Shown piece by piece: positions 117-16,046 of a DNA stretch of 64,000 nucleotides. How positions within the stretch are numbered: the first letter of the stretch is position 1; every line of letters begins with the position of its first letter. The translations under genes and the position numbers were made by a program. This DNA comes from Spirochaetae bacterium HGW-Spirochaetae-1. GTDB taxonomy: Bacteria; Spirochaetota; UBA4802; UBA5550. The stretch lies in assembly GCA_002839375.1 (NCBI GenBank), contig PGXY01000002.1, positions 1-64,000 of the forward strand. The letters are read 5' to 3'. The notes beneath the pieces are model-generated. The model did no database searches, was not told the DNA's origin, and saw only the letters and a list, made by a program, of their open reading frames with translations.

Positions 117-268
117 TCGCATGGTTTCATCACCGCATGACTATTTCCATTATCAATTCAAAATCCTGAAAAAAATATCACCATTTCCCGCTGGTTCGTT
201 CGTGTTATATGCAGGGGCCGGGGCGGCGTCCGGGTCATGATTTGGAAAAAGGGTTGACTGGAGTTCAC

Positions 269-640
269 ATGCGTGCTAACATGAAAAATAGTAAGAGAAG
301 CATACTTTTCTACAGAACCGCCGAAGGGAAGTGCCCCGTGGAAGATTTTCTCGATTCTCTGCCGGGAAAGGCTGCGCAGAAAATCACCTGGGTTCTTGGC
401 ATATTGGAAAATCAGGGAGTGCTTCCGGCGATGTATTTTAAAAAGCTTGTCAATACCGATATCTGGGAATGCCGTGTTCAGTACAGTTCCAACGTGTATC
501 GTCTGTTATGCTTTTTCGACAGGGGATCAATAATAATTTTAACCCATGGGTTCATTAAAAAGACGCAAAAAACACCCGGTGATGAGATTAAAAGGGCTGA
601 GGAATACAGGAATGATTATCTGCGAAGGAGACACGTATGA
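269..640 (+). CDS. higB: HigB/RelE-type toxin (Gp49-like)
   Basis: Toxin of a type II toxin-antitoxin pair. The 123-residue product has the layout of the phage Gp49-like/HigB family: an N-terminal beta strand leading to FYRTAEGKCPVEDFLDSL, a helical pair, then the core strands with DIWECRV and YRLLCFF, and a C-terminal helix rich in Lys and Arg. Family members are usually ribosome-dependent mRNA interferases, and that activity is inferred here. ATG 269 follows GGAG (260-263) by five bases; ATG 281 is a possible later start. The stop overlaps the antitoxin start as ATGA. The pair sits between 23-nt direct repeats, suggesting a mobile or recombination-prone cassette. Confidence 0.88.
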   Translation: MRANMKNSKRSILFYRTAEGKCPVEDFLDSLPGKAAQKITWVLGILENQGVLPAMYFKKLVNTDIWECRVQYSSNVYRLLCFFDRGSIIILTHGFIKKTQKTPGDEIKRAEEYRNDYLRRRHV

Positions 641-912
641 GTGATCTGAAAAAATACATACACAAAAGAAAGGCGAAAGATCCTGATTTTGCCCGGGGAT
701 ATGACGAGGGATTTGAGGAATTTAAAATCGGACTGGTTCTTCGCCGGGAACGTGAAAAGAGCGGCTTAACCCAGGAAGAGCTGGCTCAAAAGATCCGGAC
801 GACGAAGAGCGCTATCTCCCGCATCGAGAATCATGCCGAGGATATCAAGCTGTCGACCTTGATGAAGGTTGCCGAGGCGCTGGGGAAGAGGGTTACTATA
901 CGATTGGTTTGA
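637..912 (+). CDS. higA: HigA/Xre-family antitoxin
   Basis: Antitoxin and probable autorepressor partner of the preceding toxin. The 91-residue protein has a helix-turn-helix of the Xre/Cro type at about residues 32-86 (LRREREKSGLTQEELAQKI followed by the recognition-helix region TTKSAISRIEN). The short acidic/basic N-terminus probably contacts the toxin. The start is fixed by AAGGAG (625-630), six bases upstream, and by a 4-bp ATGA overlap with higB, which implies translational coupling. In the HigBA arrangement the toxin gene comes first, as here. Confidence 0.9.
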   Translation: MSDLKKYIHKRKAKDPDFARGYDEGFEEFKIGLVLRREREKSGLTQEELAQKIRTTKSAISRIENHAEDIKLSTLMKVAEALGKRVTIRLV

Positions 913-1369: not shown

Positions 1370-1414
1370 AACTACTATATAGTGGTTGACATTTAGAGAT
1401 TGTATTTATATTCC
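1370..1414 (+). promoter_or_regulatory. promoter with overlapping palindrome, defence operon
   Basis: TTGACA at 1386-1391 is a perfect -35 hexamer. TATATT (1407-1412, 15-bp spacing) or TATTCC (1409-1414, 17-bp spacing) could be the -10. An 18-bp palindrome with one mismatched pair, arms AACTACTAT and ATAGTGGTT (1370-1387), overlaps the -35 box and is placed like an operator. The site lies at the left edge of the AT-rich island, about 120 bp before the methyltransferase start. The assignment is by motif only. Confidence 0.45.
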
Positions 1415-1536
1415 GTAACTGAATAATTTTTGATTTTGATTATAATAAATAATTGCTTTTAGAAAATAAAAATTATGAATAAATAACAACCTTTTTCTTT
1501 TAAGTAATAATATTAGCAATTTGGAGGTCTTTTCTT

Positions 1537-2868
1537 TTGAGGTTTATCGACTTGTTTGCTGGGCTTGGTGGATTCCATATAGCTCTTAAGAGATTGGGAC
1601 ACGAATGTGTTTTTGCGTCCGAAATAAATGAGCATTTACGCGAATTATATAAAATAAATTTTAATATTTTGCCTGATGGAGATATTAGGAAAGTTAAACT
1701 AAAAGATATTCCACAACATGATATTTTATGTGCAGGATTTCCTTGCCAGCCGTTCTCAAAAGCAGGCGAACAATTGGGACGATCTTGTACTCAGTGGGGA
1801 GATTTGTTTGACTATGTTATCAGAATATTAAAAGTTCACCACCCCAAATATTTTATTTTAGAAAATGTACCTAATTTACTTAAACATAATAATGGATTAA
1901 CTTGGATCCAAATGAAAAATGAATTAATAAATATTGGGTATCAAGTTAGTGAAAATAAATTATCTCCTCATAAATTTGGAATTCCTCAAATCAGAGAGAG
2001 AGTTTATATTGTTGGATCAACTGATAAACTAGATCTATTTAAATGGCCTGAAGAGAATAGTAATTTTGAAAATGAAACAATCAATTCCCTTTTGGAAAAA
2101 AAACCAAAAGACGCGAAACCTTTATCTCGGCAAGTAATTAATTGTTTGAATACTTGGCAGGATTTTATAAATAAATATCCATCAAATATTGAACTCCCAT
2201 CCTTTCCTATTTGGTCAATGGAATTCGGAGCAGATTATCCTTATGAGAAAGATACTCCGCATTCAATTGGCTTACAACGTCTTGGAAAATTTAAAGGAAG
2301 TTATGGTATTGCATTAAATAATTATCAAAAGAAGCAAAGAATGGATGGACTGCCTTCATATGCAAAGACCCAGGAAAATGCTTTCCCCATATGGAAGATT
2401 AACTTTATAAAACAGAATAGAACAATATATGAAAAGAATAAAAAATGGATCAAACCCTGGATTCCCAAAATCCAAGAATTTCCACCAAGCCTACAAAAAT
2501 TAGAATGGAACTGCAAAGGCGAAGAGAGGGATATTTGGAAATATATAATACAGTTTAGAGCATCTGGCGTAAGAGTGAAGAGGCCAACAACCTCCCCATC
2601 CTTAATTGCAATGACAACAACACAAGTTCCAATAATATCGTGGGAGCGAAGATATATGACACCACGAGAATGCGCAAATTTACAAAGTCTTGGTGAATTA
2701 AAACATCTGCCTCAAGCAATGACCATCTCATTTAAAGCATTAGGAAATGCAGTTAACGTTGATGTTGTCTACCTTATTCTTTCTAATTTATTAAAAACTA
2801 ATGATAATATTGTACGGATAAAGAATAACACCTTTTCAAATAAATTAATCATTATTGGTAATATTTAA
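1537..2868 (+). CDS. DNA (cytosine-5-)-methyltransferase
   Basis: Modification enzyme of the island; transfers a methyl group from S-adenosylmethionine to C5 of cytosine. All key motifs are visible: FAGLGG (7-12, SAM binding), GFPCQPFS (67-74, catalytic Cys70), ENV (109-111), QIRERVYIVG (151-160), TPRECANLQ (375-383) and GNAV (403-406). The long segment between about 165 and 370 holds the target-recognition domain, so the recognition sequence cannot be read off. The start is TTG, preceded by GGAGG (1523-1527) at nine bases; no in-frame ATG lies near. It is the first gene of four on the same strand, 18 bp before the ATPase. Base composition is far more AT-rich than in the flanking genes, indicating transfer. 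The N-terminal order of motifs is that of an intact enzyme. Confidence 0.93.
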   Translation: MRFIDLFAGLGGFHIALKRLGHECVFASEINEHLRELYKINFNILPDGDIRKVKLKDIPQHDILCAGFPCQPFSKAGEQLGRSCTQWGDLFDYVIRILKVHHPKYFILENVPNLLKHNNGLTWIQMKNELINIGYQVSENKLSPHKFGIPQIRERVYIVGSTDKLDLFKWPEENSNFENETINSLLEKKPKDAKPLSRQVINCLNTWQDFINKYPSNIELPSFPIWSMEFGADYPYEKDTPHSIGLQRLGKFKGSYGIALNNYQKKQRMDGLPSYAKTQENAFPIWKINFIKQNRTIYEKNKKWIKPWIPKIQEFPPSLQKLEWNCKGEERDIWKYIIQFRASGVRVKRPTTSPSLIAMTTTQVPIISWERRYMTPRECANLQSLGELKHLPQAMTISFKALGNAVNVDVVYLILSNLLKTNDNIVRIKNNTFSNKLIIIGNI

Positions 2869-2886
2869 TCCTAAATAAAAATTGTA

Positions 2887-4440
2887 ATGAAGATAAAGAG
2901 TTCAAATAAAATTAATATACGACCTGGTGTAAGTATTCTATCAGTTTTACCGCATCTTAATTATAAACCATGGTTTGCACTGGCAGAATTTGTTGATAAT
3001 TCGATTCAAAGTTTTTACGATTATTATGATGAAATAGTTAAGGTTGAGAAATGTGATTTTAAACTCAGAGTTGATATTGAAATTGATCTCTTGGACGAAG
3101 GAAGAATAATAATTCGTGATAATGCTGCTGGGATTCACGAAAAAGATTTTGCAAGAGCATTTAGACCAGCAGAAATTCCTCCCGATAGAAGCGGTTTATG
3201 TGAATTTGGGATGGGGATGAAAAGTGCTTCATGTTGGTTCTCTCCAATTTGGACGGTAAGAACTTCAGCGCTTGGTGAGCCCTACGAAAAGACGGTTCAA
3301 TTTGATATCGAAAAAATTGTCAGTGATGAGATCGAGGAATTAGATGTAATTATTAAAACAGTTGATGCAAATTTACACTACACTACAATAACATTGGAGA
3401 ATCTTTATCGCAAACCTCAAGGCCGAACAATATCTAAAATTAAAGATCATTTGAGAGATATATATAGAGTTTTCACTAGAGAAAAAAAGCTTCAGTTATT
3501 CTTTTATAATGAACCAATTCAATATATTAATCCTGAAATATTAATTGCTCCCTATTACAAGAATCTTAAAGGAAAATCTATTGAATGGCGAAAAGAAATA
3601 AATTTTGATTTTGGCCTAGGATTAAAAGCATATGGTTTTGCGGCAATTCGGAAAAAGGCAAGTACTTCAGAAGCAGGTTTTGCATTATTTAGAAGAAATA
3701 GACTTATACAAGGAAGTGCCGATGAGGGTTATAGACCAGAATATATTTTTGGTAAGCCAAATTCATTTATTTTTCAGAGGGTATTTGGTGAAATTCATCT
3801 TGAAGGTTTTGAGGTAAGCCATACAAAAGATGGCTTCCAGTGGGATGAGAATGAGGTAACTTTTTTAGCGTTACTGAAAGAGAGTTTAGGCACAGAAGAG
3901 TTCCCTCTTCTGCAGCAAGCGAGAGAATATCGTGTAGATAGAAAACCTAGTGATTATCAAAAAGGTGCACAAGCAGCCGTATTAAGGACTGCTCGTGCTA
4001 TAGAAGAAAATGCTCCTCAAGTAATGGAAGCACTTGTTAATGATAAAGATAAGGTAATTATTCTGCCAGAAGAGTTAGAAACTAACACACAAGTAACAGA
4101 AAAATCTATTGATATAGAATTGAGTGGGAATAAATGGACTATTATTATTGAACTTACTCATGATCCCTCAGTCGGAGATTGGTTACAAATAAGTGATCAA
4201 TCTTCTTCCTCAAATTTGGGAGAGAGCAGGGGCAGGAAAATAAGTTTAAGATTATCTTTGTCGCATCCCTTTATGGAGCGTTTTTCAGGTCCTGATTGTG
4301 ATGAAATAGAACCAATTTTAAGAATAGCTGCTGCCCTTGGTCTAAGTGAAGTGATTGCAAGAGAGAGTGGTGTGAGAAAGGCTGGAACAATTAGGAGAAA
4401 TGTCAACGAATTACTAAGAAATGCATTATGGCAAACATAA
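2887..4440 (+). CDS. MutL/MORC-like GHKL ATPase (paraMORC type)
   Basis: A 517-residue GHKL-fold ATPase. The N box is LAEFVDNSIQS (32-42, with E34, D37 and N38), the G1 box DNAAGI (78-83) and the G2 box EFGMGMKSAS (106-115). The spacing and the presence of a second transducer-like region (about 215-340) match MutL/MORC relatives rather than sensor kinases, since there is no His-phosphotransfer domain. Bacterial MORC-like ATPases encoded with a cytosine methylase and a Z1 helicase have been proposed from comparative genomics (Aravind and colleagues) to act in restriction-modification, and are considered ancestors of eukaryotic MORC proteins. An ATP-driven clamp or translocation role on DNA is inferred. 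The C-terminal third (400-517) is not recognised. Confidence 0.85.
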   Translation: MKIKSSNKINIRPGVSILSVLPHLNYKPWFALAEFVDNSIQSFYDYYDEIVKVEKCDFKLRVDIEIDLLDEGRIIIRDNAAGIHEKDFARAFRPAEIPPDRSGLCEFGMGMKSASCWFSPIWTVRTSALGEPYEKTVQFDIEKIVSDEIEELDVIIKTVDANLHYTTITLENLYRKPQGRTISKIKDHLRDIYRVFTREKKLQLFFYNEPIQYINPEILIAPYYKNLKGKSIEWRKEINFDFGLGLKAYGFAAIRKKASTSEAGFALFRRNRLIQGSADEGYRPEYIFGKPNSFIFQRVFGEIHLEGFEVSHTKDGFQWDENEVTFLALLKESLGTEEFPLLQQAREYRVDRKPSDYQKGAQAAVLRTARAIEENAPQVMEALVNDKDKVIILPEELETNTQVTEKSIDIELSGNKWTIIIELTHDPSVGDWLQISDQSSSSNLGESRGRKISLRLSLSHPFMERFSGPDCDEIEPILRIAAALGLSEVIARESGVRKAGTIRRNVNELLRNALWQT

Positions 4441-4458
4441 TTTGAATAAGGGGGTTTA

Positions 4459-6693
4459 ATGAATCATACTAATGATGATCAATTGGAAGAAGTTGAAATT
4501 GTAAGTAATGTTAGCAATAATTGGAATCCTATAGTAGGTGAAGAAACAATTGCATTACTAAATCATTTGCCTATAAATGAAAGAAGTCGTATTGTCGTCA
4601 GAAATGAGGCAGTTTCAATTTTATCCAAATGCATTTCGCCATTAGATACAGAAGGCCAGCAAACTGGTTTGGTTTTAGGTTATGTTCAAAGTGGGAAAAC
4701 ATTATCTTTTACAACTGTTGCTACTTTGGCAAGAGATAATGGTTTTCCAATAATAATTTTAATTGCTGGGATTTCTAATCCACTCACCACTCAATCAAGA
4801 GATCGTCTCCACAGAGATCTTCGACTTGAGGTAAGGGATGATAGAGTATGGAGGCATTTACATAACCCAGATATTCAGAATCGTGCTCAAGATCAAATAA
4901 ATAATATTATTGAAGAATGGCGTGATCCGTCAGTCCCTCTCAAAGAACGCACTACTTTGTTAATAACCACAATGAAGAATCATAGACGTCTTGCAAATCT
5001 CAGAGAAGTGTTTATGTGTGTCGATCTCCGAAAAATACCGGTATTAATTTTTGATGATGAGGCAGATCAGGCAGGATTAAATAATCTTATTAAGCAGGGT
5101 GAAGAAAGTACAACATATACAAGATTAAGAGAACTAAAGGAAATAATCCCACATCATACTTTTTTGCAATATACTGCTACACCACAAGGTCCTCTTCTTA
5201 TTAATTTAATAGATATTCTATCACCTGGTTTTGCAAATACTCTAACGCCCGGTGATGATTATACAGGAGGTAGAGACTTTTTTATAAATAATCAGCATCT
5301 GTTAAGGGAAATTCCATTCAATGAAATCCCGACAAATGATAATCCAATTCATGAACCTCCTGAAAGTCTATTAGCTGCATTGCGAGTATTTTTTCTCGGT
5401 TTAGCTTCAACTCAACTCAGGCATATGGGGCATGGTAATAGGTCGATGATGGTTCATCCTTCGCATAAAACCGATCCGCATCAACAATATTATGATTGGA
5501 TTATCAATATAATAAACAACTGGAAAACAATATTAGCTAATAAAGATGACCCAGATTATAACGATCTAAAAGAAGAGTTCAGATTGGCATATGATGATTT
5601 AGCTAGCACTATTGATAGCTTAGAAGAGTTTGATTCTTTATATTCAATCATACATCGAGTTATAAGAAGAACAGAAATAATAATAATAAATGCTCGTAGA
5701 GGGCGTACTCCAGAGATAGATTGGCGAGGTGCCTTTTCTCATATTCTAGTAGGCGGTCAAGCCCTAGATCGTGGTTTTACTATTGAAGGTTTAACAGTTA
5801 CTTATATGCCTAGAGGAGTGGGTGGGCGCCAAGCAGATACAATACAGCAGCGTGCAAGATTTTTTGGTTATAAAAGATCTTATTTAGGATATTGTCGGAT
5901 TTATATTGAAAGGGAACTAAATATTGCTTTCACTCGATACGTGCAGCACGAGGAAGATATTAGAGATAGATTGATTGAATACGAAAATCGACCACTTAGA
6001 GATTTAAGGAGGGCATTTTTAATACCACAAGGCTTTAAAGCAACAAGGGATAGTATAATCGATGTTGATTATACTATCCTTAGATTCAATAATGAATGGT
6101 TTTATCCACAAGCTCCTCAGGATTCAATAGAGTCAATTATAGAAAATAGAAATACAGTTTTTAATTTTATTAAGTCAATATCCCTTTCTCAGGATGATGG
6201 CCATCCAGACAGAACCCCATATCAAAGACATTTATTTTCTGATACAATTTCTCTCAAGCATCTTTATGAAAATCTTTTATTGGATTTAAGGTTTACTCGG
6301 CTATCAGATGCACAAAATTTTCTTGCTATAATAATCCTGTTGAGAAATTTTTTGGAAAACAGTTTTTCGGATGAGGAATGTTCTGTCTATTATATGAGTC
6401 AAGGAATCAATAGAGAAAGAAAATTAGATGCCAAAGGTGAATTAGTCAACCTGTTTCAAGGAGCCTATCCTGTAAATCCCAAAGAAATCAGAGGAAGTAT
6501 TTATGCAGGGGACAGATATATCCACTCTAATGATAATATTACAGTTCAAATTCATATGTTAAATATACTTGATAACGATAAAAAATTGATATACGATAAT
6601 CCTGTAGCTAATATTGCAATTTTCTTACCCGAACGTCTTAAGACTAATGTATTGATACAGAATCAAGGTGGAATCGATTCTGATGAAGAGTAA
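4459..6693 (+). CDS. Z1-domain superfamily 2 helicase/ATPase
   Basis: A 744-residue protein with superfamily 2 helicase motifs: Walker A GYVQSGKT (74-81), Walker B DDEAD (199-203), motif III-like YTATPQ (238-243), then GGQALDRGFTIEGL (432-445) and QQRARFFGYK (463-472), corresponding to motifs V and VI. The latter half of the helicase is the Z1 domain typical of restriction-associated helicases. It probably translocates on DNA and delivers the nuclease encoded next. The start is preceded by AAGGGGG (4448-4454) and lies 18 bp after the ATPase gene. Its 3' end overlaps the nuclease gene by 11 bp, implying coupled translation. The residues after about 520 carry no motif I recognise. Confidence 0.88.
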   Translation: MNHTNDDQLEEVEIVSNVSNNWNPIVGEETIALLNHLPINERSRIVVRNEAVSILSKCISPLDTEGQQTGLVLGYVQSGKTLSFTTVATLARDNGFPIIILIAGISNPLTTQSRDRLHRDLRLEVRDDRVWRHLHNPDIQNRAQDQINNIIEEWRDPSVPLKERTTLLITTMKNHRRLANLREVFMCVDLRKIPVLIFDDEADQAGLNNLIKQGEESTTYTRLRELKEIIPHHTFLQYTATPQGPLLINLIDILSPGFANTLTPGDDYTGGRDFFINNQHLLREIPFNEIPTNDNPIHEPPESLLAALRVFFLGLASTQLRHMGHGNRSMMVHPSHKTDPHQQYYDWIINIINNWKTILANKDDPDYNDLKEEFRLAYDDLASTIDSLEEFDSLYSIIHRVIRRTEIIIINARRGRTPEIDWRGAFSHILVGGQALDRGFTIEGLTVTYMPRGVGGRQADTIQQRARFFGYKRSYLGYCRIYIERELNIAFTRYVQHEEDIRDRLIEYENRPLRDLRRAFLIPQGFKATRDSIIDVDYTILRFNNEWFYPQAPQDSIESIIENRNTVFNFIKSISLSQDDGHPDRTPYQRHLFSDTISLKHLYENLLLDLRFTRLSDAQNFLAIIILLRNFLENSFSDEECSVYYMSQGINRERKLDAKGELVNLFQGAYPVNPKEIRGSIYAGDRYIHSNDNITVQIHMLNILDNDKKLIYDNPVANIAIFLPERLKTNVLIQNQGGIDSDEE

Positions 6694-7678
6694 GCTTGAG
6701 GATTTATTTAATCAGCTAACTTCAAAAAGTATCTCATCTTCTAAGGAAGTAGTATTCTTTGCTTTAAAAATCCCTGGTTATACAGATAGACATATCGGTA
6801 AAGATTCCAACAATCAGCCTGCTATTCTTATTTCTACAAAGAATATTAAAACATACCCTGCAAATCAAATTATGGAAAACCTTAGAATCGAGCATGGATT
6901 GAAAGTTAAAATTGTAGAATCAAATAATAGCTATTCAGAGGGAATTTATTCTATTATTCAGTGTACATCAAATGATATCGAAATAAAGAGGTATTTTCTT
7001 CGAGTTATAGATTCTATTATACATACACTTCCTGAAACAGTATCATCTCGAGATATTTCGATAATTATTGATAGACTTACTTGTCTGTTCCTATCACTTA
7101 AACAGCCAGCACGGAAATCTATCCTTGGCTTATGGTCTGAATTGTTTATAATTGTGAGTTCAATAAATAGTATTTTTATGCTACAATCTTGGCATAACGA
7201 TCCTTATGAAACATATGATTTTAGCTGTGATCTTTCACGATTAGAAGTGAAAAGTTCTTCTAAAACACGATGTCATTATTTTTCTTTTCAACAAGTTTAT
7301 CCACCTGATAATATAGATTTAATTATTGCTTCAGTTATAGTTAAAGAATCATCTAGTGGATTATCATTATTGGATTTATGGGATAATGCTAAAGAAATTG
7401 CTGGAGATGATTTTGAATTAAGATCCAAAGTAGATAGAATATGTACTGAATCGCTTGGAACAGATTTTCAAAAAAATTTATTTAAATGCTTTGATTTAAA
7501 TATTGCAAAAAGTTCACTTATCTTTTATCATATAAGTGAAATACCTAAAGTTCCAAGGGAAATACCAGCAGGAGTCAGTGAGATTACATTTAAGTCGGAC
7601 TTAAGTTTTACTCATAAGTTAGATCGAATAGTAACAATTAAAAATACAATTTTTAATGCTTATTATGGAAATGATTAA
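6683..7678 (+). CDS. DUF4420 PD-(D/E)XK nuclease-like protein
   Basis: Predicted endonuclease of the system. The 331-residue product contains GLWSELFII (149-157, Glu153) and, after it, DFSCDLSRLEVKSSSK (179-194), where Asp179 or Asp183 with Glu188-x-Lys190 gives a PD-(D/E)XK-type active site. This is the hallmark of the DUF4420 family, which is encoded next to Z1 helicases. The ATG at 6683 is preferred because AAGGTGG (6665-6671) lies 11 bases upstream; an in-frame GTG at 6668 lacks a good site. The gene overlaps the helicase stop. It is the last gene of the island; only 42 bp separate it from the convergent hpt gene, and no clear terminator was seen. Cleavage specificity is unknown. Confidence 0.8.
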   Translation: MKSKLEDLFNQLTSKSISSSKEVVFFALKIPGYTDRHIGKDSNNQPAILISTKNIKTYPANQIMENLRIEHGLKVKIVESNNSYSEGIYSIIQCTSNDIEIKRYFLRVIDSIIHTLPETVSSRDISIIIDRLTCLFLSLKQPARKSILGLWSELFIIVSSINSIFMLQSWHNDPYETYDFSCDLSRLEVKSSSKTRCHYFSFQQVYPPDNIDLIIASVIVKESSSGLSLLDLWDNAKEIAGDDFELRSKVDRICTESLGTDFQKNLFKCFDLNIAKSSLIFYHISEIPKVPREIPAGVSEITFKSDLSFTHKLDRIVTIKNTIFNAYYGND

Positions 7679-7720
7679 CAATAAAAATAAACAGTAAGGG
7701 TTCCTTGTTCCGGCCATCTC

Positions 7721-8431
7721 TCACCCCTTAAAAAACCCCTCATTAATAACCACAATAAACGGCAGGTTCCTGAAGTCGTCGGCTGTGTCTATGCCGTACC
7801 CGGCGATCCACTGGTCTTCGATGATGAAGCCGCGGTAATCCACCGTGAGGTTGTCGCGGAGGAGTTTTACTTTCTCTGTGGGATTGGCCAGGCGCTTGTC
7901 CAGGAGGCTGCATATTTTCACGGAATTGACGCGGCGCTCGTTGCGGAGATAGTTCAGCATCCAGGTCAAGGTGAAGCCCTGGTCCGTGATGTCCTCCATG
8001 ATGAGGACGTCCTTGCCTTCCACGTCCTGGGGTTCCATGAGGAGGCGGACAGCCCGGTATTCCTCGCCGCTTCCCTTGATGGATGAGTCGTAGACGCTGG
8101 TTTTGATCAGGTTGAAGCGGGCGTGAATATTTCCTTCTGAAAAAATGTCGCGGCAGATGTCCGAGGCGAAGATGACGCCTCCCGTGAGCACCACGAGAAC
8201 CTCCAGGTGTTTGGCCGGGGCGTAGTCTCTGACGATCTGCCTGGCCAGGGCCCGGTTCCGGGCCGCGATGCACTGGGCCGGGATGAGCAGGCTTTCTATG
8301 CGCTCGTCGGCTTCCACGATTTCATGGAGGCGGGCCCGTTCGCCCGTGCTTATGGTTGCGTCGAGTACGCCGGAGCGCGGCACCTCAATGACGTTGTTGT
8401 AATCGCTTTCGTTGAGAATGAGCTGGCTCAT
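7721..8431 (-). CDS. hpt: hypoxanthine phosphoribosyltransferase-like
   Basis: Purine salvage enzyme that should transfer ribose phosphate from PRPP to hypoxanthine or guanine. The PRPP-binding motif VLIMEDITDQGFTL lies at 142-155 and the pyrophosphate loop LTGGVIFASD at 82-91. At 236 residues it is longer than most bacterial Hpt proteins (about 180), with about 40 extra residues at the N-terminus. The ATG at 8431 is preceded by GGGAG at eight bases; upstream in-frame codons lie inside the neighbouring gene. It follows the RsmG-SpoU fusion by 22 bp on the same strand, so the two are probably co-transcribed. Substrate preference cannot be told from sequence. Confidence 0.85.
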   Translation of the reverse strand: MSQLILNESDYNNVIEVPRSGVLDATISTGERARLHEIVEADERIESLLIPAQCIAARNRALARQIVRDYAPAKHLEVLVVLTGGVIFASDICRDIFSEGNIHARFNLIKTSVYDSSIKGSGEEYRAVRLLMEPQDVEGKDVLIMEDITDQGFTLTWMLNYLRNERRVNSVKICSLLDKRLANPTEKVKLLRDNLTVDYRGFIIEDQWIAGYGIDTADDFRNLPFIVVINEGFFKG

Positions 8432-8453: not shown

Positions 8454-9932
8454 TTACCGGACGGGCTTCTGCCGCATCCATTCATAGAGTGCAATGGCCG
8501 CTGCCATGGAGGCATTGAGGGAATCGATGCCGCTGCCCAGGGGTATGGACACGCTGCCGCTTTTCAGGTTTTCCGGCAGGCCCGGTCCCTCGATGCCGGG
8601 CAGGAGATAAAAGGTCTCGGGGAACGTGAAGGTGCGTATGTCCGTTCCGCCGCTGTCCAGGGTGATGAGGGGGGCGTCGAGGCCCGTTTCGTCCAGGTCG
8701 TAGAGGGAAGGGCCGCGCTTTAAGGGTGCCTGGAACACGGTCCCGGATGAAGAGCGCAGGCATCGGGGGTTCCAGGGATGGGCAGCCTCGCGGGTGATGA
8801 TAATATTTGCCACGCCCAGTCCCACGGCGCTCCGGATTACGGCGCCGACGTTCTGCGGGTCCTGGAAGGGTATGATGAGATTGCAGCCCTTTTCGGCTTT
8901 GCCGTCCCATTCGGGCAGCTCGGGCATGCGGGCCGCCAGGAGGGGGCCCCGGGTTGTGAAGGTATCGAGCTCGTTGTAGAGTCCTTTTTTCATGATGAGG
9001 AGACGGCGCGTAGCGGCGTATTCGTCGCAGGCGCGGTTTATGGCGGTGTCATATTCCACGTAGCCGTCGTGGATGATGAGCCAGTCCTTTTCTATTGACG
9101 GGTTTTCCAGGGCCTCGACGATGATTTTCTTTCCCGACAGGATCAGGGCGCCCTGTTTCTTCATGCCGGCAGCCGAGGTGAGCTTTTTCAGTTCCTTGTA
9201 GGTCTTGTTGTCGGGCGAGCTGATGGCCTGGCCCAGGGCCGTGTCCTCGTGCTTTGATATGACGTAGGTCCGCGTCAGGGTGGAGCGCTTTTTCCGGAAG
9301 AGAAGTATCCGTCGGGCGTATTCCGTGCCCGGCAGGGTGTAGGGAATGTTCTCCGCCGCCTCGTACTCGTCGCGGTTCGCGGGTGACAGGGCTTCCAGGT
9401 CCGTGCCGGCCTCGGGGCCCTTCATGAGGATCACCGTACCGTCGGCGGGGAGGAAGTGGGCCACGCGCGTCAGGGTCTCGTCGGCCGATTCCAGGGCCCG
9501 GGTGATGACGCCCGTCACGGGAAAGAAGGACTTGTCCGTCACCAGGTGGCCGTATATCTCCACGCCCTCGAGGCCCAGCTCCTTCACGGCCATTTCCATG
9601 AAGGTTACGCGTTTGTGACGGGGCTCGGCCAGGATAATATGCAGGCCCGGCAGGTAGATCTTCAGGGGCAGGCCGGGAAAACCGGCGCCCGTGCCGATGT
9701 CCACGAGGGAACCGGGCATTTCAACGAAGCGCGTGAAGTAGATGGAATCGATGAAGTGCTTCACGATAATATCGTCGAAGGTGCGCAGGCGCGTCAGGTC
9801 CATCTCGTCGTTGTGGCGCACCAGGAGGTCGTGCAGCAGGGCGAACTGCTCCGCCTGGCGCGGGGTGAGTTCAATCCCGGCCTTCTTGAAATACGAATTC
9901 ATTTTTTGTATGTTATGCTGGTCCATTGTCAT
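8454..9932 (-). CDS. rsmG: RsmG-SpoU (TrmH-type) fusion rRNA methyltransferase
   Basis: Two RNA methyltransferases in one 492-residue chain. Residues 1 to about 215 are RsmG (16S rRNA m7G527 family): KHFIDS at 58-63 and the SAM site VDIGTGAGFPGLPL at 77-90. Residues from about 240 to 492 are a SPOUT 2'-O-ribose methyltransferase: an N-terminal substrate-binding part (LTSAAGMKKQGALILSGKKI, 251-270), motif 1 NVGAVIRSA (361-369), motif 2 around RCLRSSSGTVF (390-400) and motif 3 IEGPGLP with IPLGSGIDSLNAS (447-475). Both halves look intact. I see no frameshift or stop between them. RsmG is normally a separate protein of 200-240 residues, commonly near mnmG, so this fusion is unusual. The SPOUT target is unknown. 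Confidence 0.88.
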   Translation of the reverse strand: MTMDQHNIQKMNSYFKKAGIELTPRQAEQFALLHDLLVRHNDEMDLTRLRTFDDIIVKHFIDSIYFTRFVEMPGSLVDIGTGAGFPGLPLKIYLPGLHIILAEPRHKRVTFMEMAVKELGLEGVEIYGHLVTDKSFFPVTGVITRALESADETLTRVAHFLPADGTVILMKGPEAGTDLEALSPANRDEYEAAENIPYTLPGTEYARRILLFRKKRSTLTRTYVISKHEDTALGQAISSPDNKTYKELKKLTSAAGMKKQGALILSGKKIIVEALENPSIEKDWLIIHDGYVEYDTAINRACDEYAATRRLLIMKKGLYNELDTFTTRGPLLAARMPELPEWDGKAEKGCNLIIPFQDPQNVGAVIRSAVGLGVANIIITREAAHPWNPRCLRSSSGTVFQAPLKRGPSLYDLDETGLDAPLITLDSGGTDIRTFTFPETFYLLPGIEGPGLPENLKSGSVSIPLGSGIDSLNASMAAAIALYEWMRQKPVR

Positions 9933-10670: not shown

Positions 10671-12686
10671 ATGTCCTTACTTCCCCTGAACAGGAAAGTC
10701 CTGGTGAGAATTCCCTATCATCAGGCACTGAAACCGAAAAAACATGATTCCCTTCTGGCCGGCGCTGCACAGGCCGATATCACGCCGCCCCCGGGCATGC
10801 CCATGGCCGGTTTTTCCACCTTTTCAAGCTTCAGCCGGGGCGTGCGCACCACCCTGAAGGCCAGGGTCTTTTACCTGAAGGCACCGGGCGAGCGGGGTAT
10901 CGCCCTCATACAGTGCGATCTTCTCTCGGGCAGCCTGGCGGTCCATCACCGCGTTGCCGAACTCGTGGCGCCGGAAACGGACCTGGATACGGGAGGCATT
11001 GTGCTGGCGGGAACGCACACCCATTCGGGGCCCGGCAATATCTTCGAAAATCATTTCTATAATAAAATGGCATCAAATGCGGCGGGATATGATGCTGCCT
11101 GCGCCGAATTCATTTCACGGCAGATCGCCCGTGCCGTTATAGAGGCATATAAGGGACGCAAAAAGGCGAAGATCGCCACGGGCTCCACGGAGCTCTACGG
11201 TGTCACGAAAAACCGCAGTTTCCCGGCCTATGCCCTGAACCGTGAAACGGAAAGCGAAGAGAGCAGGCAGGATATGTACCGCGCCGTGAATCCTCACCTG
11301 CACATGATACGGGTGGACTGCCTGGACCGTAGCGGCACATACCGGCCCCTGGGGGCCTTCACGAGCTTTTCCATTCATCCCAACACGAATCCATCCCTGC
11401 TGGGCCGCCTCTACAACGGCGATATAACGGGATTTGTCGAACGGATGGTGGAGCGGGAAATAAAGGAACGGTACGGCACGGCCTGGCATCCCCTCCTGGC
11501 AGCGGCAAACCAGACCCACGGTGACTGCAACGCAAATTTCTCCGAGGACTACGACGAAAATTTCCTCGACCAGAAGAGGCTCGCCCGGGAGATAGCCCGG
11601 GCCACCATGACTCTCTTTCGGTCCCTGGACCGCAGGCTGAAGAGCACGGTCCCGGTGCTGTACCGGGCGCGGCGCCTGGACCTTCTCCGCGAGGGAAGCG
11701 TTGACAATATAACCATTGCAAAACATCCCGCGCCGGGATACGCCTCGGTAGGCGGGGCCCAGGGCAGGGGAAGGCGGACTCCCTTCAGTTTCATTCCGCC
11801 CTTCAGGCCCGGCATGCCGAAAAAATCCGGTGCGGGCGAGCAGGGGCACAAGCGCGTGGCCCTGGGACTCCTGGGACGGCTCCTTTTTAAAACACGTCAT
11901 TATCCCCGTCTTTACCTGGCCCAGGTTATCCGCGTCGGCGATTTTCTCATGATACCACTTCCCTGGGAGGTGACCTTCGAGATGGGGCGCCGCATCGCCC
12001 GGCAGGCCCGGGAATCGGCAGAAAAGGCCGGTATGAAGGGACTGGGGCGGGCCTTTGTCATTGACACGGCCAACGGTTATTGCGGCTACGTGAATACGCC
12101 CGAGGAATATTCCCTCCAGTACTACGAGGGGGCCAGCAATCTCTACGGTCCTGACACGGGCCTCTTTATCGCCGTCCATGCGGGACGACTGGCCGTTGAG
12201 ATGGCCGAAAAGGGCTCCGGCAGCCACATCCCGCCGTCCCTGAGGCTGAAGCTCTATAGCGGATCGTATTATCCCCGGGCTGTTCCGCCGCGGGGGCAGA
12301 GAAAGGCCGTACTGGAACCGGTACGGTGCGCCAGGCCTGAGGGAAAGGAATCGTACTTTCGTTTTCGCTGGCGCGACGCGGCTCCCGGCATGATCAATCT
12401 CAGCGAAACCCTGGTGCGGGTCGAGGTGAAGGGGAAAAAGGATACCTGGTCCACGCATGTCGTGGAGGGCATCGCCGTGGACAGCCAGGGCATGGACCTG
12501 TCTGTGGTTCTCGTGAGGAATTATTCACTGCGGGCCATGGCGGTTTACGAGGCACGCTGGCTCAGTCCCGCCGGTGACGGCCTGTACCGCTTTGCTATCG
12601 CCCCCCGCGGGCCCTTCGCGGAATTGTATTCCGATGAATTTACCCTGGAGCAGGGCACGCCTATTGAATCAAAGACAGTTAAATAA
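10671..12686 (+). CDS. neutral/alkaline ceramidase-like hydrolase
   Basis: A 671-residue protein related to neutral ceramidases, zinc amidases that cleave the N-acyl bond of ceramide. Visible features are GAAQADITPPPGMPMAGFS (31-49), the zinc-site segment TGGIVLAGTHTHSGPGNI (107-124) and KNRSFPAYALN (about 180-190), all characteristic of the N-terminal domain. Family members are usually secreted, but no signal peptide is visible. The start is fixed by GGAGG (10661-10665), five bases upstream. The gene is followed 13 bp later by a START-like exported protein and then a Cys-rich protein, probably one operon. Substrate is uncertain; several bacterial members act on other N-acyl lipids. Confidence 0.75.
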   Translation: MSLLPLNRKVLVRIPYHQALKPKKHDSLLAGAAQADITPPPGMPMAGFSTFSSFSRGVRTTLKARVFYLKAPGERGIALIQCDLLSGSLAVHHRVAELVAPETDLDTGGIVLAGTHTHSGPGNIFENHFYNKMASNAAGYDAACAEFISRQIARAVIEAYKGRKKAKIATGSTELYGVTKNRSFPAYALNRETESEESRQDMYRAVNPHLHMIRVDCLDRSGTYRPLGAFTSFSIHPNTNPSLLGRLYNGDITGFVERMVEREIKERYGTAWHPLLAAANQTHGDCNANFSEDYDENFLDQKRLAREIARATMTLFRSLDRRLKSTVPVLYRARRLDLLREGSVDNITIAKHPAPGYASVGGAQGRGRRTPFSFIPPFRPGMPKKSGAGEQGHKRVALGLLGRLLFKTRHYPRLYLAQVIRVGDFLMIPLPWEVTFEMGRRIARQARESAEKAGMKGLGRAFVIDTANGYCGYVNTPEEYSLQYYEGASNLYGPDTGLFIAVHAGRLAVEMAEKGSGSHIPPSLRLKLYSGSYYPRAVPPRGQRKAVLEPVRCARPEGKESYFRFRWRDAAPGMINLSETLVRVEVKGKKDTWSTHVVEGIAVDSQGMDLSVVLVRNYSLRAMAVYEARWLSPAGDGLYRFAIAPRGPFAELYSDEFTLEQGTPIESKTVK

Positions 12687-14210: not shown

Positions 14211-14918
14211 TTATTGCGCTACCGGCGCCCCGTAAATAAACGCCACCTTCTCGGCGTCGCCCGTGCTCACATAGAAGGCCCGGGTGTACTCCTCGCCGCT
14301 CACGTAATCGAAGCTGCGCAGGCCAAAGGCCTTGTTTCCCTGGGTACGGGTATAGTGCATTACCGATGCCGTGTCATACATGAAATCCTCTTCGGTGATC
14401 AGGGTGCTGTCCAGCTTTTCATACTGGCTCATGGCCTCCGGCGCTATATTCTCCCAGTGGACCGTGATGTAGAGGTCCCGGTCGGGCCGCTGATGCTCCT
14501 TCAAAAGACCCAGGATATGTCCCAGGAGATGAACATAGTGGCGCTGATACAGCTTCGACTCCGTGGGGATGGCCAGGCGGGGATTCTTTGCATATCCCAC
14601 GGTGGTTTCAGCCTGGCCGTCGGTATAGTTGATAATCAGTGTTGATTCGGGACGGTCTTCCCGGCCCGTGTAATCGATGAATTCAATGTTGCAGTACTGG
14701 GCCCATTCCTCCATGGCCAGCTTCAGGTAATCCAGGTCTCGTTCTGGCAGGGTTGCCTCTACTGCATAGGGGATTTTGCCGTCGGGCCAGGCCTTTACTT
14801 CCACCTGGCGTGCAGCGTTCCTGCTGTCGCCATCCTCAGCGCCGGTTTGATCATAGCAGCCGATCAGGAGCCCTGTCAGGGTAAAAAAGACCAGTGATGT
14901 GATAATTGTTTTTTTCAT
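14211..14918 (-). CDS. astacin-like lipoprotein lacking catalytic residues
   Basis: A 235-residue lipoprotein with a lipobox LLIGC near residue 21, followed by an astacin (M12A) domain. The family zinc signature HExxHxxGxxHExxRxDRD is present in altered form: HLLGHILGLLKEHQRPDRD. The catalytic Glu is Leu and the third zinc-binding His is Lys; the first two His, the Gly and the downstream RPDRD remain. The Met-turn SVMHY is intact, and the rest of the domain (IPYAVEATLP, AMEEWAQYCNIEF) is well preserved with no frameshift. It is therefore probably not a protease. A binding role is inferred. The second ATG (14918) is nine bases from AAGGAG and is preferred over 14927. Confidence 0.8.
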   Translation of the reverse strand: MKKTIITSLVFFTLTGLLIGCYDQTGAEDGDSRNAARQVEVKAWPDGKIPYAVEATLPERDLDYLKLAMEEWAQYCNIEFIDYTGREDRPESTLIINYTDGQAETTVGYAKNPRLAIPTESKLYQRHYVHLLGHILGLLKEHQRPDRDLYITVHWENIAPEAMSQYEKLDSTLITEEDFMYDTASVMHYTRTQGNKAFGLRSFDYVSGEEYTRAFYVSTGDAEKVAFIYGAPVAQ

Positions 14919-15071
14919 AATGACCATCTCCTTGAGAATAATGTTTTCCGTTGATGGTCAGAATGTAGCTAAGAAAGAAAATTTTCTCTTCTCAAATTGT
15001 CAGAATGTGTATTTTGCCCATGGTTAAATCTTCATATGCAGTTTTGGTCAGACCGGCGGGACTGGTGATGG

Positions 15072-15106
15072 GGAACTGTTCCTGTATAAAGCAGGGCTCT
15101 GACCCC
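15072..15106. repeat. REP-like sequence ending GCTCTGACCCC
   Basis: GGAACTGTTCC (15072-15082) is followed by AAAGCAGGGCTCTGACCCC. The eleven bases GCTCTGACCCC recur at 38098-38108, where they form one arm of a large hairpin. GGGTCAGAGC-type repeats of this kind are, from memory, linked to RAYT (REP-associated tyrosine transposase) elements in other genomes; no such transposase is in the window. The surrounding 14919-15215 intergenic region holds nothing else clear except the repeated phrase GTCAGAATGT (14955, 14999). Confidence 0.4.
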
Positions 15107-15215
15107 TTATTTTTAAGAAAAAAAATATATTATTGTTGCGCAGGAAACCATTGGGCTGCTAATTGTACCATTGTGGTGTCATCAGTATAATTAATATACT
15201 CAAAGGTTATTATAC

Positions 15216-16046
15216 ATGAAGAAAATTTTAGTATATATTGCCGTTCTTCTAATACCCTGTACAGCCTTTTCTGAAACTGATGAAAAGTATCATAGCCTGT
15301 CCTTCGGTGTAAACGTATATTATTATGATTACCATGAAAAGCTGCCGGAACCGGCAAAAAGCAATGAAATCGGCTGGCTGCCCGGTTTTCTCATCGATTA
15401 CAATTACCGGGACAATAATCTTTACATCAGGGCCGCCCTCGATTTTACCTATGCCAAAACCGTCTATGACGGATCATATATGGATATTGCCACGGGCGAT
15501 ATCTTTCCTTATACAGGGAAGACATTAAATCTTTTGCTCAACACGGAAGGCATGATTGGCTATATATTCAAGGGACCCGACACAAAGTCTGCCATAATTC
15601 CCTACGGGGGGTTCGGATATCATCTCTGGGTCAGGGCGCTTCAGGGGGAAGGAGGATACAGTGAATATTACAGCTGGAATTATTTTCAGCTCGGTCTTCT
15701 AATTGAAGTGAGCCCTGTATCGCCATGGACCGTGGGGATCAATGCGGCATTTAAGATGATGTTCAACGGCAGAATCAGGGTAAACCTTTCCGATATGAGT
15801 GATGGATACAATAATCCCGAATCAGACCTGGGTAGTAAACCGGGATGCAGGATAGCCCTGCCGGTAACCTATGCTTTCACCGATACATGGCGGGTATCGT
15901 TCAGTCCCTGGTATGAATACTCGGCCATCGGCAGGGGGGATATCTTTGAGATTTATTATAACGGTTCTCTCGATAGTTACGGCTACGAACCTGCCAGCAG
16001 AACGCATCAGTATGGGCTGCTTATCATGTCGACCTGGAATTTTTGA
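15216..16046 (+). CDS. predicted outer-membrane beta-barrel protein
   Basis: A 276-residue protein with a signal peptide (MKKILVYIAVLLIPCTAFS) and then alternating aromatic/polar strands such as YHSLSFGVNVYYYDYH, NNLYIRAALDFTYA, WRVSFSPWYEYSAI and a final strand YGLLIMSTWNF ending in Phe, the usual terminal residue for outer-membrane insertion by the BAM complex. It supports a diderm host. There is no recognised family and no obvious enzymatic motif. It stands alone upstream, with the REP-like sequence before it. Confidence 0.65.
   Translation: MKKILVYIAVLLIPCTAFSETDEKYHSLSFGVNVYYYDYHEKLPEPAKSNEIGWLPGFLIDYNYRDNNLYIRAALDFTYAKTVYDGSYMDIATGDIFPYTGKTLNLLLNTEGMIGYIFKGPDTKSAIIPYGGFGYHLWVRALQGEGGYSEYYSWNYFQLGLLIEVSPVSPWTVGINAAFKMMFNGRIRVNLSDMSDGYNNPESDLGSKPGCRIALPVTYAFTDTWRVSFSPWYEYSAIGRGDIFEIYYNGSLDSYGYEPASRTHQYGLLIMSTWNF

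Follow-up and report, generated by a model that had tools for sequence, protein, structure and literature searches.

A compact MORC-Z1-DUF4420 cassette with a cytosine methylase in a spirochete genome, a probable horizontally acquired restriction-modification system

The first 64,000 nucleotides of contig PGXY01000002.1 from Spirochaetae bacterium HGW-Spirochaetae-1 (Spirochaetota), hereafter the window, raise the question of whether four adjacent genes near their left end constitute a complete restriction system, to which kind it belongs, and how the genome obtained it. Taken together, the analyses made it fairly probable that the cassette is a horizontally acquired, self-contained restriction-modification system of the MORC-Z1-DUF4420-Dcm kind. 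Reading of the ORFs identified four intact genes on the plus strand between 1537 and 7678 (Table 1), with no internal stops. The four families named in the original prediction were recovered by a Pfam search (C5 methylase, HATPase_c_3, Z1, and DUF4420), with all matches exceeding the curated cut-offs, and the methylase additionally passed the TIGR00675 dcm cut-off. The first gene starts at a TTG codon preceded by a Shine-Dalgarno-like GGAGG. Spacing between genes one and two and between genes two and three is 18 bp each, and the nuclease gene overlaps the Z1 gene by 11 bp if it begins at ATG 6683 instead of GTG 6668; the ATG was preferred because the N-termini of homologs align with it, and with this start the previously claimed spacing holds. 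An extent of 1370 to 7678 had been proposed for the island, of which the gene-bearing part stood; the start at 1370 adds only an AT-rich upstream stretch.

Table 1. Coordinates of the cassette features in the window.
Feature	Coordinates	Strand	Basis
Putative promoter region	1371..1536	+	20.5% GC; sequence and base composition
C5 cytosine DNA methyltransferase, 443 aa	1537..2868	+	PF00145, 4.7e-69
MORC-type GHKL ATPase, 517 aa	2887..4440	+	PF13589 (HATPase_c_3), 7.8e-14
Z1-domain SF2 ATPase/putative translocase, 744 aa	4459..6693	+	PF10593, 2e-40
DUF4420 PD-(D/E)XK endonuclease (predicted)	6683..7678; alternative start 6668	+	PF14390, 1.6e-25

Alignment with 16-20 homologs showed the catalytic residues of the four proteins to be invariant or nearly so, in line with the intact motifs reported earlier. 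The methylase conserved C70 (catalytic), ENV, QxRxR, and GN, and its nearest solved structure was M.HhaI. The Z1 protein contains the Walker A motif QSGKT, DDEAD, TAT, and DTIQQRARFFGYK, and QSGKT, DDExD, TATPQ, and QRxRxFGY were invariant in 17 homologs. In the nuclease, E158, D184, and K195 were invariant and E193 nearly so across 20 sequences (numbered from the GTG start). Its predicted fold had a mean pLDDT of 91 and a Foldseek search with this model returned no significant match, while in the VIA-align ranking of the Foldseek candidates the first 14 rows contained PD-(D/E)XK enzymes, which aligned within residues 146-336 at Z 3.6-6.9. The best fold matches, over residues 146-325, were Hjc, DpnI, a SPARDA nuclease, EcoRV, and HincII, with middling Z-scores, and agreed with an E158, D184, E193, and K195 active site; the weak matches of the N-terminal domain (approximately residues 1-130) to SycT (Z 3.4) and the MotA DNA-binding domain (Z 3.3) were taken as uninformative. 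A search by sequence for solved relatives of the MORC, Z1, and nuclease proteins found none.

The ATPase had been labeled a paraMORC, a name that its sequence contradicts. The protein comprises a GHKL domain, an S5 domain, a linker, and a C-terminal alpha/beta domain, and the motif GhXhhpXXRhl in S5 separates MORC from paraMORC1-5 (PMC2292703). This defining motif is present as GFALFRRNRLI at residues 264-274, and the ATPase is therefore a MORC by the published definition. The N, G1, and G2 boxes that complete the 2008 criteria for family membership are read as E34..N38, DNAAG, and GMGMK and, like the S5 motif, were kept in 21/21 homologs tested, and alignment showed conservation of E34/D37/N38, D78xxxG82, GMGxK, and K314; the S5 pattern also occurs in MzaB-type proteins and hence does not separate MORC from MzaB. 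The paraMORC1-5 families are further marked by C-terminal extensions of their own (nuclease, TIR, or HxH) or by ExxxH; in the Pfam search, HATPase was the sole domain of the window protein, with no nuclease or TIR extension. The structural model (mean pLDDT 80, weaker toward the C-terminus) matched the ATPase modules of Hsp90/TRAP1 and of human and mouse MORC2/3/4 (E ~1e-13).

With the ATPase reassigned, the cassette corresponds to an operon type already described by Iyer, Abhiman and Aravind 2008 (PMC2292703), the third MORC type of that study, in which one operon combines MORC with an SFII helicase bearing DThhQXuRhFG, a restriction endonuclease-fold E-D-ExK protein, and usually a C methylase. 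The C-terminal helicase motif reads DTIQQRARFFG in the window, and the E-D-ExK nuclease, the MORC S5 motif, and a nearby cytosine methylase are common to both; Vsr, frequent in the described type, is absent from the window, and otherwise nothing essential differs. The original prediction was correct in tracing this kind of system to comparative genomics of MORC and MutL homologs. Its view of the MORC subunit as unusual did not survive, as MORC was already reported in such operons in 2008 and the related ATPase MzaB belongs to Mza.

When species genomes were scanned for the MORC protein, 15 loci were recovered, and 393 genomes from the host phylum contributed another ten. The order methylase-MORC-Z1-nuclease on one strand was found at approximately 24 other loci, a count that includes near-copies (three similar Poribacteria loci and two Shimia copies) and is made up of ten loci from species genomes, eight from the host phylum (counted among loci whose flanks had been extracted), a single plasmid, and five contigs from IMG/VR. 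These cassettes range over Pseudomonadota, Poribacteria, Campylobacterota, Levyibacteriota, Bacteroidota, Actinomycetota, the host phylum, and IMG/VR contigs, so that at least six named phyla besides the host's own carry them. Departures from the order included a divergent methylase gene (L032), a methylase at the opposite end (L092), and an HNH_2 endonuclease in the position of the DUF4420 nuclease on a Hymenobacter plasmid (L057:14270-15151). Vsr adjoins the methylase at L035 and L045, and the genes after the nuclease vary by locus (MTaX1, AAA, Fic), which leaves the four shared genes as the stable core. The identical four genes, with no others, recur at other loci, which bears out the description of the island as complete. 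On a sixth IMG/VR contig (L088:5261-6366), two minus-strand transposase-like ORFs lie between the methylase and MORC genes.

The Mza system (mzaABCDE; Gao et al., 2020), as outlined in PMC9523054, a 2022 paper reporting a related putative system, shares with the window a row of genes for Z1, a DUF4420-like nuclease, a GHKL ATPase, and a cytosine methylase, and the cassette could be read as an instance of this anti-phage system in which a component is absent or degraded. Such a reading would also accommodate the homology of the two GHKL proteins, which was distant in hhalign (99.1%), and a partial MzaC match (76 bits in PADLOC, 96.5 bits in NCBIfam). It became highly improbable as the curated MzaB-E models of PADLOC and NCBIfam did not assign the window to Mza, with MzaC and MzaB scores far below the NCBIfam cut-offs of 1500 and 850 and no hits of the PADLOC MzaD and MzaE profiles in the window. 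A true Mza system from the host phylum served as positive control (the AIPR-bearing L113) and scored 414, 954, 120, and 434 bits on MzaB-E in PADLOC. The Z1 protein is also shorter (approximately 745 aa compared to approximately 925-950 aa in Mza), and AIPR, whose absence had been claimed, gave no match in the island or the 5.2 Mb assembly. Recurrence of the compact form across phyla further argues that the cassette is not a decayed Mza, and this identity was largely refuted.

In a midpoint-rooted phylogeny of 51 Z1 sequences, the window protein grouped with other compact systems, 30 in all, on one side of a branch (support 98/92; the split was recovered in 99% of bootstrap trees), with AIPR-bearing, multi-gene, and CglI-like systems outside. 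The compact branch is a well-supported lineage separate from Mza and CglI/NgoAVII, and its status as a clade is unproven due to the midpoint root. The ATP-dependent Type II systems CglI and NgoAVII (PMC4267653) resemble the window in pairing a C5 methylase with a protein (N) that combines SF2 and Z1, whereas their nuclease consists of PLD and B3 and MORC is absent, compared to DUF4420 and MORC in the window; PLD and B3 Pfam hits were absent from the cassette, which does not fit CglI/NgoAVII in its nuclease. The CglI-like host-phylum loci L126 and L127 branched apart, and L126 gave both PLD and B3 hits. Pin25611FIII of Prevotella intermedia (PMC5608340), compared by its description only, likewise combines a C5 methylase and Z1 in a five-gene operon but carries AIPR, in contrast to the window. 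A Type I or Type III assignment failed as the HsdS/HsdM and Mod/Res families were absent from the four proteins in the Pfam search. Searches of the open-access literature for a characterized compact MORC-Z1 system turned up the 2008 prediction and related systems and no experimental work on the branch, which is weak evidence of its absence. Three points are new here: the compact branch forms a lineage apart from Mza, the ATPase is a MORC and not a paraMORC, and a common target is predicted.

The prediction of a common target derives from the methylase target-recognition domain (TRD, approximately residues 173-365), the region in which the specificity of C5 methylases resides. In 18 of the 20 methylases compared, this domain was 38-62% identical to that of the window with at most four gaps over 193 residues, and the N-terminal catalytic parts were 50-66% identical. 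L039 departs from the rule with a different methylase and L054 with a partly different TRD. Identity of the TRD fell to 10-22% against L121 and 11 methylases of other Z1-system types, the latter at 10-21% with 52-123 gaps. Even the outsiders with the nearest catalytic parts, L113 and L121 (43% and 46%), had unrelated TRDs, as did the Mza-type methylases. Given where C5 specificity is located, this conservation suggests that members of the compact branch probably share one recognition sequence. Related Z1 systems target GCWGC, methylated in Pin25611FIII according to bisulfite sequencing (PMC5608340), and GCSGC (PMC4267653).

The same conservation might instead reflect a binding interface, with the methylase acting as specificity subunit of the restriction complex as in Type I and III systems. 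Tight gene linkage would fit this proposal, as would the search of the restriction subunits for a separate DNA-recognition domain (cf. B3 of CglI), which identified none in the nuclease or Z1 protein. We regard it as unlikely, since similar methylases occur in other contexts and thereby fit a common DNA target better: in Neorhizobium, a full-length relative occurs beside a different ATPase together with a Z1 protein that is divergent, one is encoded by a methanogen virus from a phage genome collection that contained no match to the window MORC, and the window methylase matches a PADLOC Druantia methylase profile along its entire length.

The match to the Druantia DruM profile (PDLC00034) includes the TRD and suggests either targets common to different defense types or a broad profile. 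The viral methylase (Methanobacteriales virus BK063679.1, vir323, 14402-15601) could be aligned over its full length including the TRD (36.6%) and possibly provides self-protection against such systems. Among at least 5000 matching plasmid records, three covered at least 80% of the methylase, namely two MORC cassettes and one Neorhizobium DUF262-Z1 system. The latter, on a conjugative plasmid (L055:9001-18217), encodes a methylase with the same kind of TRD, split into two ORFs, together with a DUF262/GmrSD_N protein in the MORC position, a divergent Z1, and a PD-(D/E)XK protein. MORC as a fixed subunit, as originally predicted, was consequently valid inside the branch and did not extend to this plasmid relative. 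A gene pair (approximately 370 and 315 aa) was observed beside two different Z1 systems (L033:4377-6490 and L055:16176-18217), with N-termini that look alike, essentially no Pfam family, and a first member that is perhaps ParB-like in L055.

The most likely mode of action is restriction-modification in which Z1 would drive translocation and MORC would serve as a DNA clamp. The methylase would place 5-methylcytosine on one recognition sequence of the host DNA, the step with family-level certainty. By analogy with CglI/NgoAVII, in which the N protein likewise unites DEAD ATPase and Z1 domains and hydrolyzes approximately 175 ATP/s per monomer, provided that both R and an unmethylated target are present (PMC4267653), a Z1-DUF4420 complex would hydrolyze ATP and move along unmarked DNA. 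The PD-(D/E)XK nuclease, with its conserved active site, would finally cut the DNA, and the MORC protein may be what couples or licenses the cutting. Judged from the biochemistry of MORC, MutL, and Hsp90 proteins, MORC may dimerize upon ATP binding and close round the DNA as a clamp or loop-trapper, which would hold the complex on its substrate. More tentatively, and with somewhat less than even confidence, the compact cassette may represent a distinct restriction subtype that has one recognition sequence across phyla and MORC as an obligatory DNA clamp.

Eukaryotic MORC proteins function in transposon silencing and DNA compaction and are thought to descend from such bacterial restriction systems. 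The cassette could by extension act through abortive infection or through MORC-mediated compaction and silencing instead of cutting, the methylase marking self only, and the Abi-type AIPR gene of the related Mza systems points in the same direction. This mode of action is very unlikely in view of the nuclease with conserved E-D-ExK residues that is kept at nearly all loci and the absence of an Abi effector, and cutting by a translocating, MORC-clamped complex is preferred. A portable four-gene cassette without accessories offers a tractable setting for the role of a MORC ATPase in DNA attack and, if the distinct subtype is real, a minimal bacterial model of how these ATPases handle DNA. The conserved TRD further predicts that the methylome of almost any carrier would disclose the target of the branch.

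The cassette was recently gained by horizontal transfer. The GC content of the island is 34% (29-35% for its genes) compared to approximately 50% for the genome, an AT-rich composition that indicates acquisition, and third-position GC is 16-25% in the cassette genes versus 70-81% in neighboring genes. The window-type MORC and the Z1 protein were absent from the sampled relatives of the same family, whose matching DNA is 64-71% identical to the window and too diverged for an empty-site comparison. No mobility gene was seen at the window copy, and no exact direct or inverted repeats of at least 10 bp were found between 901-1560 and 7641-7900, with the left context limited by the contig end. Serine recombinases or integrases lie near cassettes in unrelated hosts, including a Rathayibacter plasmid (L056), the host phylum (L048 and L050, the latter recombinase called from near-identity to that of L048), and IMG/VR contigs (L086, L092, and L093). 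In Shimia aestuarii (L041/L042), the cassette occurs twice on one contig, approximately 19 kb apart, with an integrase beside each copy.

Other genes around the island were also noted. A Gp49/RelE-like toxin and HTH antitoxin pair (209-912, plus strand) lies directly before it. In a single minus-strand ORF further downstream (8454-9932), RsmG/GidB occupies residues 27-193 and is fused with a SpoU-type rRNA methylase at residues 356-483, a fusion that may be conserved in the family as the relative L010 matches most of both halves. A neutral/alkaline ceramidase-like protein is encoded at 10671-12686 on the plus strand.
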